A stretch of 42,895 nt of DNA, taken from assembly GCA_030531085.1 (NCBI GenBank), contig JAUNOM010000021.1, forward strand, positions 1 through 42,895. Direction: 5' to 3'. Positions within the stretch are counted from its first letter, which is position 1; each line of letters opens with the position of its first letter. Made by a program: the position numbers and the translations under genes. Positions 10,395 to 39,651 of the stretch are shown piece by piece. The notes under the pieces are model-generated. The model was given only the letters and a program-made list of their open reading frames with translations. It was not told where the DNA came from and searched no databases. Source of the stretch: Prevotellaceae bacterium (GTDB lineage: Bacteria > Bacteroidota > Bacteroidia > Bacteroidales > Bacteroidaceae).

Positions 10395-10729
10395 CCCTGT
10401 TATTAGGATTATCTCGCATACTTCCATATCGCGGCAGACGGTAATGCGAAAGGGTCCAATACGGCCACAGCGTCTTAAAATTATGCTGAACAGGCCTTTA
10501 GAAATAATGTCAAACAATGATGCCGCGAAAGAAAGGAACACAGAGCCTCCGCAAATGCGAGGCAGAAAAAACAGACAGTAGAATACATACGAACGGTGAG
10601 TAGAGAACATTGCTTCTTCTCCCAACTTCCTCCAAAGAGTATCACGCCTGCTCTGTCTTTTACAGACTAAAAAAGGCAAATATCATTAACTTTGAAGGAA
10701 GCTAACATCTGTTCGACATACATATACAT

Positions 10730-10927
10730 GAGCTTTCGCTCCTGTTCTCTTATCTGAAAACCGCCAAAAGAAGATTTGGAAAGAACAAGACAGCGATTGG
10801 CTCACGTCCCGTATAGGGGCGTGACCTTTTGTCTTACTTGTTTTCCAATAAGGTGCTTGGCGGTACCCCAGATAAGGATGAGTAATCGGACAAGGTTGCG
10901 CTCCTTCTCTTATTCTTATTTTATCAA
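10730..10927 (+). promoter_or_regulatory. structured leader RNA, copy 1
   Basis: A small hairpin (GAGC-TTTC-GCTC, 10730-10741) is followed by a long rod: CTTATCTG 10749-10756 with CAGATAAG 10869-10876; ACCGCCAA 10760-10767 with TTGGCGGT 10857-10864; TTGGAAA 10776-10782 with TTTCCAA 10842-10848; and an apical hairpin TCACGTCCC 10802-10810 with 10816-10824. The apical 3' arm GGGGCGTGACC (10816-10826) can instead pair with GGTTGCGCTCC (10894-10904), extended by TTGTC 10829-10833 with GACAA 10889-10893. A U-rich stretch then runs to the ATG at 10928. The same architecture occurs at 37744-37929. I know of no named family that I can assign it to; Rfam (for example the Bacteroidales-1 model) should be checked. 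Confidence 0.75.
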
Positions 10928-12136
10928 ATGAAAAAATTTCGTTTATGGAGTCTTATTACCATGATAACCCTGATTTGTGTAGGAAATATGCTCGTCGCCT
11001 GTGGTGGTGATGACAATGGAGATACACCTCCACCACCTGCCACAAAGATAGTAGTCTCACCGACAGCAGAGCTGTTAGGCAATGTAAGCAGCACTACTAC
11101 TGTATCTGTAAGCATCCAGTCCGATGAGATGTGGACTATCAGCGGTGTGCCGGAATGGTTGAGTCTGAACAGGTCCGGTGTAGGTCCTTCCAGCGTTCTG
11201 ATAACAGCCACACAGGAAAACTTCTCTGATACGGAGAGAGAAGCGGAACTTGTCTTCAGCACTTCCGACGGTTCCTCAACAGCAACCTGTAAAGTCAGCC
11301 AAAAGGGTGTGCTGGCCAAAAACTGCAGAGTCAACCTTGGCGAGACAACAGTTATGTGGGACGGCTTTGTAACGGACTTAGGGTTTGACGCCAACTGCAA
11401 AGGATACCGTGAGGCATTTTTCACTGCCAGGGCAGTAGATGACATGACAGAACGCGACATCTACAATATGCTTATGGAGAAGACCGAATACAGCAAGAAG
11501 GCAGATTACACGTTCTCACCAATCGTTACGGAAGAAGGATTGGAAATAGTATACTGCGTTGCGGCGTATGGTAGTGAGGCAAACACAGACGGTTCGCATA
11601 AATACGGCCCTATGACAATGAAACATATCAAGCTGCCCATGAAGACTCCCGAAAGCACTATGTACCTTAACTTGTCCTACACCTCATCAACTTGGAGCGT
11701 CAACGCATTACGCGAAGGCCGTTATGGGCAGAAATGTGACGAGTACTATTATGCAGCATGGGAGGGAGAAGCAGCATCCGAATTCCACAGTTTAACTATA
11801 ATGAATTCCGCCTTAATTGCCCATGCAATCAAGAAAGAGATTGCAAAGGATGGATATACATCAAACTACAAATACGGTCCGCAGAAAATGTCATGGAGCA
11901 GAAACTCTAACACCTTCTTCTGTGCAACATGGGGCAAGAACAAGGATACCAAAGAGTTCTCCACATTATTAGGTTATGTATACAAGAATATGTCCTCAAA
12001 CAGCTATAACGGCACCATTATGAAGTCTGACTTGAAAGACAAGACGATAGATTTGAGAGAGAAATATCCTTTGATGAAGGACCTGCTCAAACAGGTTTCC
12101 GTAACAGTCATGACGGACAAAAACGCCATCAAGTAG
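10928..12136 (+). CDS. BACON domain lipoprotein
   Basis: A 402-residue surface-type lipoprotein. The signal peptide ends in a lipobox (LVACGGDD, Cys at about 26); acidic residues right after Cys resemble the Bacteroidetes lipoprotein surface-export signal. Residues about 40-130 form a BACON domain, with the typical WTISGVPEWLSL and strand pattern ending VSQKG. BACON domains are all-beta modules often tied to carbohydrate or mucin binding. Residues about 130-402 are unassigned. First gene of an operon with the C10 peptidase, which suggests it could act with, tether or be cleaved by that enzyme (inference). It begins right after the structured leader. Confidence 0.82.
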   Translation: MKKFRLWSLITMITLICVGNMLVACGGDDNGDTPPPPATKIVVSPTAELLGNVSSTTTVSVSIQSDEMWTISGVPEWLSLNRSGVGPSSVLITATQENFSDTEREAELVFSTSDGSSTATCKVSQKGVLAKNCRVNLGETTVMWDGFVTDLGFDANCKGYREAFFTARAVDDMTERDIYNMLMEKTEYSKKADYTFSPIVTEEGLEIVYCVAAYGSEANTDGSHKYGPMTMKHIKLPMKTPESTMYLNLSYTSSTWSVNALREGRYGQKCDEYYYAAWEGEAASEFHSLTIMNSALIAHAIKKEIAKDGYTSNYKYGPQKMSWSRNSNTFFCATWGKNKDTKEFSTLLGYVYKNMSSNSYNGTIMKSDLKDKTIDLREKYPLMKDLLKQVSVTVMTDKNAIK

Positions 12137-12188: not shown

Positions 12189-14312
12189 ATGATTATTATG
12201 GCTTTCAGAAATCACTTTATATTATTACTCCTGCTGTTCTGTGGCGGTGCAGCGTATGCCCAGCAGCGTTCCGAGGCAGAGATAGAAGAAATATTGCTTA
12301 ACAACAAAAGCCTTTTAAACATATCACAAAAGCTGTCGTTAAAGGAGAAATCGTCAACATTGTTAAAAGACTGTGACATCACAGATGGCAAAGAATCCTT
12401 TTATGTCTACACATCAGGCACCAAAGGCAAGGAGTCTTTCGTCATTATCTCTGGAGACAAGAGAATGCCCGCGGTGTTAGGATATTCTGACAGTAATGCT
12501 TTTGACCCGGACAACATACCGCCCGCATTGAGAAATTGGCTGAAGGAGTACACCAAACTGTACCTTGGAACAAGTACTGTGAACCACTCCTCCACCCTGC
12601 CCTCAAGCATAAGACAGGACGGTGTGGAGCCTTTGCTTGGGACAAACAAGTGGGGACAGTCCCACCCTTATAATGACAAGTGCCCTTCTGTACGAAACAC
12701 CAAGACACTGGTGGGCTGCGTGGCTACCGCTATGGCACAGGTTATGAAGTATCACTCATACCCTGAAAGAGCCAAAGGCAACGTATCATATACCACCAGG
12801 ACCAACAGGCTGAACATACGTCATGATTTTTCCAATGACAGATTTGAATGGAACAGTATGCTTCCAGACTACTCTGGCTCCTATTCTGACGAGGAGAAAG
12901 ACGCGGTGGCAACCCTAATGTTCAGCTGTGCGGCAGCGGTAGAGATGGATTTCGGACTGACAAACCAGGGCGGAAGCGGTGCATACCAGTCGGACTTGCT
13001 TAATGGATATATAGAAAACTATGGTTATGACCGTGATGCCGCATTGATTGTAAAGAACTATTGTTCTACCGAAGACTGGCATTCATTACTTGTCAATGAG
13101 CTGAACGAAGGCAGACCGGTGAACTATGCCGGCTCAAGCATACGTGACGGAGGGCATTCCTTCGTGCTGGACGGTTATAAAATCAGCAGTAACACATATC
13201 CGGACTATCATGTCAACTGGGGATGGAACGGCTCATGTGACGGTTATTATCAGATTGCGAACCTACATCCTCATGATGGAGACATTGATGCGACAATAGA
13301 CGCATTCAGCCAAAGCCAGCAGATGACAATAGGCATAAAGCCTGAAGATGGTGTGGACATGGGACGGTATATGCTCCTTTCATCTAAACTGAACTGTTCT
13401 TTGTCCAAGGTTAAGACCAATGGGACACTGTCATTTAATGTTTCTTCTTTATACAACTGCTCGTATAATCGGTTTTCCGGCGTCATATCTGTATGTCTGA
13501 TTGATGACAATGGCAATATGATTACTCTCGGAACAGGCAACAGGTATGAATTGAAATATTTGGAGGGTAGCGGTAATCAGAGTTACACCTGTGTACTACC
13601 AGACGAGGTTCATGTTGGTAAATACAAGGCTTCACTGGCATACAGACCTGCCAGTTCGGATGAATGGAGAACGGTATATTCAAGTTCATACCCCACAATC
13701 GAGGTTACCGCATCAGAGAATGTAGGGCCTGCCGATGAAGAATGGGCGGAGGTTGGATGTTCGGAGGTGGAAATCGCACAGCCGAAAGACAGACATACCA
13801 TAACAGCGAATGTTTATGAACTGATAAACCTGCAGCAGGAATCGTTTAAAGGAACCATACAACTGACGATGGCGGACGAGAATGGCTTCCCATTATTTAG
13901 CTTTGGAGAGCCACTTGAGATACCGGAATTAGGATATTACGACTATCTTTCAGAAGCGGTACAGATAACTGGCATCGTTGACAGAATGCTCTCGGACGGA
14001 TACTACAGACTGTATGTGTCCGCAAAGAAGCACAATAAGAACATAAATTCCTATGTGGTATTGAACGACTTGGCTAAGCCGGGCACACAGACAACGGAGT
14101 TCTTCTACAAGGTTACAGTGAGAAATGGCGTTATGACTATAGATGACAAACAGTATGACTGTCTGCCGACAAGCGTAAAACAAATAAAAGACAGTAAGGA
14201 ACACATTAAAGGCCTATACGATATATACGGAAGAGAATTACCCAAAAGAGACATTCTTAAAAAAGGAATATATGTAGACGGTGACTCAAGAAAGGTGTTT
14301 CTGTCTGAATAA
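12189..14312 (+). CDS. C10 family (streptopain-like) exported cysteine peptidase
   Basis: A 707-residue exported peptidase. After a signal peptide (to about AYAQQ) a Spi-type inhibitory propeptide is expected up to about residue 150. The C10 catalytic core shows Cys177 in VGCVATAMAQVMKYHSYP, His323 in GGHSFVLDGY, and the conserved NWGWNG. Residues about 390-660 look like beta-sandwich repeats. The last 35 residues (LYDIYGRELP ... GIYVDGDSRKVF) resemble the C-terminal tails on Bacteroidetes secreted proteins, related to type A sorting domains. Two possible ATGs, 12189 and 12198, are equally usable. Streptopain homologues in gut and oral Bacteroidales degrade host or microbial proteins. Confidence 0.88.
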   Translation: MIIMAFRNHFILLLLLFCGGAAYAQQRSEAEIEEILLNNKSLLNISQKLSLKEKSSTLLKDCDITDGKESFYVYTSGTKGKESFVIISGDKRMPAVLGYSDSNAFDPDNIPPALRNWLKEYTKLYLGTSTVNHSSTLPSSIRQDGVEPLLGTNKWGQSHPYNDKCPSVRNTKTLVGCVATAMAQVMKYHSYPERAKGNVSYTTRTNRLNIRHDFSNDRFEWNSMLPDYSGSYSDEEKDAVATLMFSCAAAVEMDFGLTNQGGSGAYQSDLLNGYIENYGYDRDAALIVKNYCSTEDWHSLLVNELNEGRPVNYAGSSIRDGGHSFVLDGYKISSNTYPDYHVNWGWNGSCDGYYQIANLHPHDGDIDATIDAFSQSQQMTIGIKPEDGVDMGRYMLLSSKLNCSLSKVKTNGTLSFNVSSLYNCSYNRFSGVISVCLIDDNGNMITLGTGNRYELKYLEGSGNQSYTCVLPDEVHVGKYKASLAYRPASSDEWRTVYSSSYPTIEVTASENVGPADEEWAEVGCSEVEIAQPKDRHTITANVYELINLQQESFKGTIQLTMADENGFPLFSFGEPLEIPELGYYDYLSEAVQITGIVDRMLSDGYYRLYVSAKKHNKNINSYVVLNDLAKPGTQTTEFFYKVTVRNGVMTIDDKQYDCLPTSVKQIKDSKEHIKGLYDIYGRELPKRDILKKGIYVDGDSRKVFLSE

Positions 14313-37468: not shown

Positions 37469-37500
37469 TTGCAGAATTTAAGATTTTATGAGTACCTTTG
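37469..37500 (+). promoter_or_regulatory. promoter of the caspase operon
   Basis: TTG (37469-37471) and TACCTTTG (37493-37500) are 21 bases apart. Transcription would give a leader of about 420 bases ending at the lipoprotein ATG. Confidence 0.65.
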
Positions 37501-37743
37501 CAAGAGAAAATATAAAGTAGGGACACGTATTCATTCCTACAAACCAATAATGAGACATAGACAGAATACAAGGTAAAACTAAATCAAGATAATACGAAAC
37601 AGACATTGATACGCAAACAGAAACGCTTTCGGTAATTTGCAACCAGCAAAATTATCCACAGAAGAAGACAACTGGGCAAAGCCTCAAACCATTTACTTGG
37701 CGTTTCCGTTCTATACTTGATAACGAACATACATTATTATATT

Positions 37744-37929
37744 GAGCTTTTAGCTCTTGTTCTCTAATCTCGAATACCGCCAATATTCATCCACGAGAAC
37801 AAGTAGACCGAAGGTTCACGCTTATAGGGCGTGAACCATTCTGTGCTTGTTGTGGATATGGTCACTTGGCGGTAACCAGAGATTAGACAAGTTACAGAAT
37901 GGTTGCACGCCTACTTTTTATTCTATCTA
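37744..37929 (+). promoter_or_regulatory. structured leader RNA, copy 2
   Basis: Small hairpin GAGC-TTTTA-GCTC (37744-37756), then a rod: TCTAATCT 37763-37770 with AGATTAGA 37880-37887; TACCGCCAA 37775-37783 with TTGGCGGTA 37866-37874; ATCCAC 37789-37794 with GTGGAT 37852-37857; AACAAG 37798-37803 with CTTGTT 37846-37851; apical GGTTCACGC 37813-37821 with GCGTGAACC 37829-37837. Alternatively GGCGTGAACCATTCTGT (37828-37844) pairs with ACAGAATGGTTGCACGCC (37894-37911) over 17 pairs with one bulged G. A U-rich stretch then leads to the ATG at 37930. Compared with copy 1, the outer stem shows a compensatory T-A to A-T change and the middle stem has different sequence but is still paired. Confidence 0.78.
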
Positions 37930-38493
37930 ATGAAAAAGCTACATTTTATTTTATACCTATTTTATGCGTGTTGGTTATTAGGATGTATAGGATGTGCATC
38001 CTTATACAGAACACAACATAACAAAGATTTTCATCAATCAGAGGATTCTGTCATTCTGTCAAAATGGGGAGAAACTGGCAAAGTCCTTACTGAATACAAA
38101 AACTTTGGTAGAATTTATAAACTTAATCCACTAACCAATTCATCTAAAAACAATTCAATAGCAGGCTTCCTGGTTACAGACACCCTGCAGAGTGTTAACT
38201 CTATACAAAGTTCTGCACTTCTATTCGCACTACAATCCCCATTTTTTTACGCAGCAGACAGTACTTCCTTTAAAAGTGTTTTTGCTCCATTTATAGCCAT
38301 AGAGATACAAGGCAAAAATAAAACTAAACAATATTTACTGCTGAGCTATAATAATAGGGAATTAGCATTGGCCTCTGATTCCATGGTTATAAAAAGAAGG
38401 AAATACGATAACCATAAATTTTTCTTGTCATTAGGCCTCAGTCTGCTCCCAAATGACAATTATTTGAAAACTAACTACGAATTAAGTAAATAA
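37930..38493 (+). CDS. small lipoprotein, first gene of the caspase operon
   Basis: A 187-residue protein starting MKKLHFILYLFYACWLLGC. It has lipobox candidates at LLGC and IGC, so it is probably lipidated. I did not recognise a domain. The start at 37930 is preferred over 37903 because the conserved leader RNA ends exactly there, as at 10928 in the other copy, and the shorter form begins with a proper signal sequence. It is 12 bases upstream of the caspase gene. Confidence 0.75.
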   Translation: MKKLHFILYLFYACWLLGCIGCASLYRTQHNKDFHQSEDSVILSKWGETGKVLTEYKNFGRIYKLNPLTNSSKNNSIAGFLVTDTLQSVNSIQSSALLFALQSPFFYAADSTSFKSVFAPFIAIEIQGKNKTKQYLLLSYNNRELALASDSMVIKRRKYDNHKFFLSLGLSLLPNDNYLKTNYELSK

Positions 38494-38505: not shown

Positions 38506-39651
38506 ATGAAGAAAATCATTTTAAACTGTCTATTTGTTGTTATGATTGTCTGTTGGGCTATAGTGCCCGCAAAATCACAAACCCTTCATGCCATAGTGTT
38601 TGCAGACACCCAAGATAATAATATTGGCATCTATGATAAGCAAGACTTTGTCAATATTACTTTAGAGCTGAATACAATAGCTTCGGCAACCGGCTTGAAA
38701 TTAAAGCAATATTACTACAAAGACACTCAATGTAACAACAGCAATTTAGTCTCGGTATTATCGAACATAAAGACTTCCACTAATGATGTGGTCTTTTTTT
38801 ACTATTCAGGGCATGGAACACGCTCTACGACCGACAACTCCGAATTTCCACAGATATGTTTGGGAAGTCATTATGAACAGGATTTCTATCCATTGGAAAA
38901 AGTTCTAAGCAAACTTTCTATGCTACCAGCAAGACTGAAAATTGTAATAGGTGACTGCTGTAACTCTATAGCTCCTGGAGTCACATCTAAAGACTATGCA
39001 ACAAAAGGTCCAACAATTTTAACAAAAGAGCCGGTCAATGTATATTGTAATCTTTTCTTAGGTAGTGAAGGTACCATCATTGCGTCAGGAAGCAGAAAAG
39101 GAGAGAATTCAAGTACTATTAGTTATACAGACGGTAATCCTGCTGGTGGAATTTTCACTGTGACATTACTTGAGGTCATGCAAACTGTATCACAAAAAGG
39201 GTTAGATGCCAGCTGGGATAATATATTTGCAGCAACAAAAACGATGACATACAAACTACGACAGCAAACGCCTGTATATAACATACAGATAAAAAATAAT
39301 GAAGAAAACTCCTCAAGCTATTCTGCGCCTGCCAACACTGCTACAGCTGACGAGGGAGGAATTAGCATTATCCAAATGCTTACTGCGATAGCCAACGAGA
39401 ATATCTCTGTGGAAAAAAGAGTAAAAGTCATCGAGGAAGCATTACAACTGGCTTTTAGCTCTCCTGATGTTAAAGTTGAAATTGTAGGGCGCAATGGTAT
39501 CACAGTTGTCGCAACAGAAAAAGCAAGCGACTTTGTCCTACGACTATGCACAACCCATAATCTGGTTAACCTTGTTGAGGTGGATGGAACGAAGGATGAC
39601 AATGGGCGATACAAATATTTGAAAGTACATGAAATTTACAAAAACTATTAA
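38506..39651 (+). CDS. exported caspase family (C14) peptidase
   Basis: A 381-residue protein with a signal peptide (MKKIILNCLFVVMIVCWA to about AKSQ), so it is periplasmic or secreted. The caspase fold follows at about 26-270, with catalytic His103 in FFYYSGHGTRS and Cys152 in VIGDCCNS. The S1-type specificity cannot be assigned. A Ser/Ala-rich linker (about 275-290) leads to a 95-residue C-terminal domain with IVGRNGITVV and a final LKVHEIY. Bacterial metacaspase-type enzymes usually cut after Arg or Lys and often act on proteins encoded next to them, so the neighbouring exported proteins are candidate substrates (inference). Confidence 0.87.
   Translation: MKKIILNCLFVVMIVCWAIVPAKSQTLHAIVFADTQDNNIGIYDKQDFVNITLELNTIASATGLKLKQYYYKDTQCNNSNLVSVLSNIKTSTNDVVFFYYSGHGTRSTTDNSEFPQICLGSHYEQDFYPLEKVLSKLSMLPARLKIVIGDCCNSIAPGVTSKDYATKGPTILTKEPVNVYCNLFLGSEGTIIASGSRKGENSSTISYTDGNPAGGIFTVTLLEVMQTVSQKGLDASWDNIFAATKTMTYKLRQQTPVYNIQIKNNEENSSSYSAPANTATADEGGISIIQMLTAIANENISVEKRVKVIEEALQLAFSSPDVKVEIVGRNGITVVATEKASDFVLRLCTTHNLVNLVEVDGTKDDNGRYKYLKVHEIYKNY

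Follow-up and report, generated by a model that had tools for sequence, protein, structure and literature searches.

The leader attenuators of trp and T-box genes and the expression platforms of metabolite riboswitches are built from a terminator and an antiterminator. The element that we describe here shares with them a pair of mutually exclusive folds in a 5' leader, one terminator-like and one antiterminator-like, with a U-run behind one of the two. However, in its candidate antiterminator, a rod, the 5' half is paired over most of its length with the greater part of the 3' half, and the element has no recognised aptamer, leader peptide or metabolic theme and precedes unrelated accessory cargo. 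The processive antitermination RNAs put and EAR act on the polymerase without a terminator of their own. Like them, the element is a cis RNA located before operons of surface or accessory genes, but it includes a competing terminator-like hairpin itself, which would set it apart from them.

The element also resembles the FopS and GibS small RNAs of Bacteroides in being a multicopy RNA family of the same phylum (PMC11697453, accessible part). According to the accessible part of the same paper, FopS consists of a single-stranded 5' stretch and a terminator hairpin, acts in trans and is stated to have been deposited in Rfam (PMC11697453). We do not assign the element to FopS/GibS, as its architecture differs from a terminator hairpin with an unstructured 5' seed and it has no Rfam match; cmscan gave no match to FopS, which may or may not be included in the Rfam copy used. 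Flavo-1 (RF01705) has 76 positions against 172 in the element and matched none of 20 loci scanned, nor anything in the genome of the window, the latter being weak evidence as the control of that scan also matched nowhere. Membership in 6S RNA was likewise set aside, there being no Rfam 6S match. In the literature searched, including the accessible parts of PMC8632094, PMC11109978, PMC9723704 and PMC11697453, no description of the element was found. The accessible part of PMC8040213 reports thousands of candidates from the human microbiome, some of them palindromic and from Bacteroidetes, and an unnamed earlier listing is possible. A leader attenuator is a known kind of element, and it is the self-annealing, near-full-length antiterminator, the breadth of the family and its cargo that are new as far as the searched, partly accessible literature goes.

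The window analysed is a stretch of 42,895 nucleotides of Prevotellaceae DNA. An earlier note had proposed, from its letters, a structured RNA present twice, at 10730-10927 and 37744-37929, with each copy abutting an exported cysteine-peptidase operon. Both copies are located where the note placed them, and their structured nature, their cis position before open reading frames (ORFs) and the unrelatedness of the genes downstream are all supported. Two covariance models were used: R1, from 31 oriented elements including both window copies (172 positions, 48 pairs), and R2, for which 94 order sequences were taken. The features of the two copies are as follows; TAnnTTTG and TAnnTTTGC are motifs that we take to be promoter-like from their consensus, their function being presumed.

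37493..37501, + strand: promoter-like TAnnTTTGC of copy 2, by sequence match
37699..37711, + strand: P1 5' strand GGCGTTTCCGTTC of copy 2, a second possible partner for the tail, seen only in the genus set
37743-37913, + strand: core element, copy 2, by covariance model match
37744..37756, + strand: GAGC/GCTC hairpin (helix 1), 98.9% of cells paired, 4/4 pairs changed on both sides
37756..37826, + strand: 5' half, putative antiterminator strand, which alone can fold as a CTTGTTCTC...GAGAACAAG hairpin
within 37756..37826, + strand: 5'-half inner stem GAATA-CCGCCAA-TATTC, covariation z -6.2
37813..37837, + strand: apical rod hairpin GGTTCACGC / GCGTGAACC (helix 8), 9/10 pairs changed on both sides, z -11.5
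37828..37911, + strand: 3' half, which by itself folds (-43.0 kcal/mol) into a long terminator-like hairpin
37894..37911, + strand: tail ACAGAATGGTTGCACGCC, pairing with 37828-37844 or, at the family level, with 37699-37711
37915..37919, + strand: U-run TTTTT of copy 2, three bases (TAC) behind the stem
37930..38493, + strand: gene directly following copy 2, by eye lipoprotein-like and without a Pfam family
38506..39651, + strand: second gene behind copy 2, caspase-fold Peptidase_C14 (Pfam E 6.2e-10)
starts 10387, + strand: second promoter-like box TACCTTTGC of copy 1, by sequence match, function presumed
10687..10694, + strand: promoter-like box TAACTTTG of copy 1, by sequence match, function presumed
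10695..10715, + strand: P1 5' strand of copy 1, which pairs with the tail region in the minimum-energy fold; tested at the family level
10729-10906, + strand: core element, copy 1, 99 bits with R1 and 102 bits with R2, copy 1 being in the building set of both
10818..10904, + strand: 3' half of copy 1, terminator-like hairpin, -31.8 kcal/mol alone
10928..12136, + strand: gene directly following copy 1, by eye lipoprotein-like, with a BACON domain (Pfam E 1.6e-6)
12189..14312, + strand: second gene behind copy 1, C10 cysteine peptidase with inhibitor pro-domain (Pfam E 1.7e-61)

The GAGC/GCTC hairpin, the stem ACCGCCAA/TTGGCGGT and the apical CACG/CGTG hairpin can be seen in both copies. The stem had been called invariant, and it is not, as this helix covaries throughout the family and also occurs as TCTGGTAA/TTACCAGA and ACGGCCAA/TTGGCCGT. 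The span given earlier is too short as well, since the family test indicates that in the genus a 5' strand located upstream (about 37699-37711 and about 10695-10715) can pair with the tail. Of the U-rich run described as leading into the ATG, copy 2 has TTTTT, 10 nt before the ATG at 37930, and copy 1 has only an interrupted U-rich tract between the 3' hairpin and the ATG at 10928. The long 3' hairpin of copy 2 is built of the apical 3' arm paired with the tail, GCTTGTT paired with AACAAG, and an inner stem around TTGGCGG. An ORF call with a TTG start at 37903 begins inside the RNA tail, and the ATG at 37930 is the likelier start. Both regions fold better than dinucleotide shuffles (copy 2, 37708-37914, z -6.1; copy 1, 10695-10910, z -6.7), with 0/200 shuffles as good in either case. 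R1 scores copy 2 at 176 bits and copy 1 at 99 bits; however, both are among the 31 sequences from which R1 was built, so these scores are not independent, and the independent evidence comes from homologues in other genomes.

Such homologues are numerous, the covariance-model searches having returned well over a hundred further copies of the RNA, which is about 172 nt long. A blast search of the window's own genome with copy 2 detects two further copies besides itself, and R2 brings the total to six rather than the two first described; several copies per genome are a feature of the family. Within the genus, blast with copy 2 matches 34/100 genomes and R1 matches 107/200 when weak matches are included (E<=1e-4), 35/85 among genomes of good quality, and 68/200 reach E<=1e-15. 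Across the order, R1 matches 79/295 genomes (E<=1e-3) spread over 54/184 genera. In 296 genomes sampled across the phylum, R2 matches 35 (E<=1e-5) in 20/140 genera, where R1 found 8; the genome counts for both models include the window's own genome. As the element is a near-palindrome, its antisense strand also scores, up to 48.6 bits with R1, which leaves R1 matches of around 50 bits uncertain. For R2, no antisense match was seen in the window genome at E<=1e-5, and scores of up to 42.9 bits arose in a laxer search, so the weakest phylum matches (46-50 bits) are uncertain. The element also occurs in records titled Bacillota or Clostridium (L202, L238, which is G144, and L242); the titles of L202 and L238 look wrong, as both seem to belong to a genome placed in the window's genus. 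Named carriers among the matches listed for a 5' pattern of the element include Phocaeicola massiliensis DSM 17679, Paraprevotella clara YIT 11840 and Xylanibacter caecicola PCHR. A plasmid search gave one record, from Phocaeicola massiliensis, covering 48% of the query at 73.7% identity.

The earlier note could not match the element to a named riboswitch, and no Rfam family was found to account for it. A scan of the window against Rfam 15 at the gathering score, with 6S, Bacteroidales-1 and Flavo-1 included, gave 0 matches; a scan of 20 loci inside and outside the order detected one tRNA only, and a scan of seven loci at E<=1 gave one microRNA match, located outside the element.

The long rod that had been read from the two window copies covaries strongly. 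In 93 distinct sequences of the 94, 93.2% of cells are paired and 43/48 pairs are changed on both sides, with a covariation of 0.588 against 0.217 in shuffled alignments (0/500) and at most 0.079 when the pairing is slid. The alignment used, A4, leans to the rod because it had been fitted to that model; nevertheless, the rod is hardly in doubt, given how large the effect is and how varied the central helix. When the element is divided into four strands, the pairs that make up the rod covary (#2 with #3, z -8.3; #1 with #4, z -3.5), and TCTC and GAGA, which bulge out of the rod, are complementary and change in step with one another (z 3.3, 8/5000). The rod is the minimum-energy fold in 84/91 cores, copy 1 among them, and there it is more stable than the two halves folded separately, the median difference being 10.1 kcal/mol. 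A state of two hairpins is the minimum-energy fold in the other 7/91, copy 2 among them; in these counts of 91, three of the 94 elements that have no recognisable U-run were left out.

However, the long rod is not the only conserved fold, as a second one, incompatible with it, also covaries. The competing pairings were tested by permutation, each sequence with its own against swapped partners, a procedure that does not fully remove relatedness. The apical 3' arm pairs with the tail at -19.6 kcal/mol against -15.0 kcal/mol when swapped (z about -15.0, 94 sequences); the 39 loci of the order search give z -9.7 (0/3000 permutations), and the distal part of the arm alone gives z -12.5. Likewise, the local strands covary (#1 with #2, z -9.5; #3 with #4, z -10.2; 0/5000 each). 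Four elements (L118, L209, L233 and L270) retain the local pairs, #1 with #2 at -9.7 to -10.4 kcal/mol and #3 with #4 at -2.9 to -7.5, and have nearly lost the rod partners, #1 with #4 at 0 to -0.2 and #2 with #3 at -1.3 to -2.3; L209, L233 and L270 are low-scoring members (65-69 bits), and the local and rod energies are not like for like, with #1/#2 carrying four extra bases. Overall, 21/93 elements favour the local pairs and 1 favours the rod pairs, under thresholds that are not symmetric. Both sets of pairs, those of the rod and those of the competing fold, are conserved by covariation.

Folded alone, the 3' half forms a long hairpin that contains the pairs between arm and tail in 88/91 elements (mean z -5.2). 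The U-run behind this hairpin is at least four long in 84/94 and at least five in 66/94, a clean run of five being absent in 28/94. Two marks of an attenuator, mutually exclusive conserved folds and a terminator-like hairpin followed by a U-run, were thus found; of a third, a place between a promoter and a co-directional gene, the gene is seen, together with an enriched promoter-like motif. An attractive alternative was one pseudoknotted or cloverleaf fold in which CCGCCAA and TTGGCGG would be kissing loops, as inner stems on both sides covary (z -6.2 and -3.9); however, pairing over more than 20 bp between the loops of two closed hairpins is awkward in its topology, and the inner stems are therefore read as parts of the alternative state or as a nucleating contact. 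Pairing of the tail with the sequence behind the U-run was unconvincing in the 39 order loci (z -1.3 to -2.1). By eye, the tails of L312, L314, L122 and L129 (AGTTCC, AGTCCC, CAGTTCCC) complement a stretch that lies a little before the start codon (GGAACT, GGGACT, GGGGAACTG), and an order-wide test of this was not significant.

In the window's genus, a further strand takes part. The P1 strand, located upstream of the GAGC hairpin, pairs with the tail in the genus set at z -7.3 (0/3000, n=84) against +2.2 for a reverse-complement control, in a test that left out loci lacking enough flank; in 39 order loci the pairing was not clear (z -1.9). Addition of 62 nt of upstream sequence raises the number of genus cores that fold as a rod from 78 to 83 of 84, and copy 2 becomes one of them. 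P1 may thus compete for the tail in this genus and tip the balance to the rod. Pairing of a strand further upstream in the leader with P1 or the tail was dropped (z -1.9 and +2.1).

The promoter-like motifs are distributed differently inside and outside the genus. The 650 nt upstream of the element contain 63 occurrences of TAnnTTTGC over 89 genus loci, where base shuffling predicts 4.1, and 47 of the 63 are at 150-350 nt from the element. Within 110 nt, TAnnTTTG is found in 33/94 loci of the A4 (order) set and in 7/8 loci outside the order (3.9 and 0.6 expected, respectively), but in only 9/91 genus loci (3.8 expected), all by base shuffling. Several features of the intervening leader were also observed. 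A conserved block, GCCAATGACATAGAAACAGAACGAA, lies at about -135 to -216 from the element in genus loci such as L016, L029 and L137; 20 of its 23 best matches keep ATG-NNN-TAG/TAA with a varying middle codon, a possible start-codon-stop minigene, although many of these loci share the flank by descent. By eye, a GAGGCTCAGCCT hairpin lies in the extra leader between the promoter-like box and the element in L137, L143 and L016, and an AAGGAGG box upstream of P1 in others (L138, L147, L142).

The position relative to the following gene is nearly fixed. The genus set comprises 92 distinct elements, with L031, L032 (partial) and eight loci from outside the order left out; the next gene is in view in 88, is co-directional in 87/88, and starts within 110 nt in 80, at a median of 19 nt. 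The corresponding order/named set has 93 elements, of which 89 have a next gene, co-directional in 86/89 and starting within 110 nt in 76. Outside the order, some copies lie far from a downstream gene (L313 at +381, L315 at +232, and none found for L318). By a crude signal-peptide rule, 62/80 genus first genes score against 107/397 other ORFs of the same loci (Fisher P 4e-17), and in the order/named set the figures are 31/76 against 142/585. The link to cysteine-peptidase operons is unsupported, as the commonest Pfam family among the 80 genus first genes is BspA-type LRR (15), followed among the first 25 of 30 families by a sorting domain (5) and DUF4468 (4). In the window itself the peptidases are second in line behind lipoprotein-like genes, and they are two of many cargoes. 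Among 77 first genes of the other set, the first 25 of 62 families include HTH_26 (8), LRR_8 (6), N6_Mtase (5), BACON (4) and N6_N4_Mtase (3), and no metabolic theme is seen among the first 25 families of either set. The element thus precedes diverse exported proteins in the genus, to which restriction-modification genes or a small HTH protein are added elsewhere. By motif, the first gene in 22/84 encodes such an HTH protein, with a HIGxxI-type start. HTH-like proteins of 66-90 aa lie directly behind the RNA in L100, L107, L115, L172 and L231, often followed, by eye, by a lipoprotein-like gene; four of five tested have no Pfam or NCBIfam family at E<=0.01.

The gene behind the leader differs between otherwise related loci. 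In 36 pairs of genus loci whose upstream flanks are shared over 300 nt or more, and that are not independent of one another, homologous DNA lies directly behind the element in only 2/36; of the 28 pairs with both first proteins, one pair is clearly homologous and one matches over 16 residues. The clearest case of exchange is a spot behind a gene that we take, from its sequence, to be frdB. In several genus genomes (L321-L331) the element lies just behind this frdB-like gene with a different gene behind it. The next 10 kb of these loci mostly differ too, except for three protein families common to two loci each, and general rearrangement therefore contributes. In contig C20 of genome G035, part of the frdB-like gene is present twice (133664-134001 and 135755-135902), flanking the element and its gene. 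In some loci a gene that is presumably RAYT-like, named from a motif, lies between the frdB-like gene and the element.

How might such an RNA work? We consider it likely, though by no means certain, that it is a cis-acting leader operating as a two-state transcription attenuator, as this explains most simply why a promoter-like motif and a gene should have between them two conserved folds that exclude each other, one of them a hairpin with a U-run. Transcription would start at promoter-like motifs tens to a few hundred bases upstream, and the two halves of the leader would then compete. In one state the 5' half would anneal along the 3' half, forming the rod as an antiterminator; the terminator's arm would be held in the apical hairpin of the rod, and the polymerase would read on into the gene. 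In the other, each half would fold on itself, the 3' half would form its long hairpin before the U-run, and transcription would stop. We infer the use of both folds for termination from this arrangement. With the rod being the minimum-energy fold in 84/91 cores, readthrough is the likely default, and the terminating state would have to be explained by kinetics or by a bound factor. The gene would then be switched off by a signal, be it a protein, a small molecule or another RNA, that occupies the 5' half, and no conserved ligand site or leader peptide was identified in the core element. Copy 1, without a clean U-run, would be a weaker terminator.

Several other readings deserve weight. The element could be a multicopy, trans-acting small RNA whose own transcript ends at the U-run and for which the downstream gene is merely a neighbour. 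The promoter-like box close upstream in many loci (33/94, and 7/8 outside the order), the terminator-like 3' end, the several copies per genome and the existence of multicopy small RNAs in Bacteroides (FopS; PMC11697453, accessible part) are consistent with this. Nevertheless, we regard it as unlikely: the near-fixed orientation and the short distance to the next ORF leave little room for another promoter outside the element, a seed-type RNA does not need covariation along a whole rod, and inspection of the alignments by eye showed no conserved seed left unpaired. Alternatively, the leader could act on translation or mRNA stability rather than termination, through 5' protection or an AU-rich initiation region. 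Stabilising leaders typically have a long closed structure at the 5' end, and in many loci only a short distance separates the U-run from the ATG. However, the arm and tail covary as strongly where the ORF starts at least 40 nt away (z -9.3, n=39) as where it is nearer (z -8.9, n=43), so the switch does not need to hide the start codon, and stability needs no U-run; this reading therefore strikes us as quite unlikely.

It is also conceivable that the conserved object is the DNA, a palindromic mobile element or recombination site of REP/RAYT or attC-like type that happens to be transcribed. The long imperfect palindrome, the persistence of the upstream flank where the gene behind differs, and the RAYT-like gene near some copies could all be understood in this way. 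However, a RAYT-like protein query against 362 sequences, in which a distant RAYT would be missed, matched only loci with the frdB-side flank, and in three of these (L344, L348 and L349) the RAYT-like gene is present with no element within about 3 kb; on this one query there is no regular association with a RAYT transposase, and a REP/RAYT palindrome is not supported. A narrow test, one 5' pattern against viral contigs, gave 0 exact matches, and a DNA site would need neither a U-run nor competing RNA folds. As compensatory change keeps the structure and the orientation to the next gene is nearly fixed, a mobile element is not favoured, and we think this reading very unlikely.

Beyond the two-state attenuator itself, a more far-reaching and distinctly doubtful idea is that of a phylum-wide 'expression-site' system, in which a fixed promoter and a self-annealing two-state leader stay in place and the exported, restriction or regulator gene behind them is exchanged. 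Annealing between the 5' half of one copy and the 3' half of another is possible in principle, so several leaders in one cell may set each other's state. If this were so, they may coordinate or exclude the expression of surface proteins.

If the attenuator reading is right, many Bacteroidota would carry an unannotated RNA switch before genes for surface proteins, lipoproteins and restriction systems. Genes of these kinds shape interactions with host and phage, and the covariance model can be used to annotate the set.
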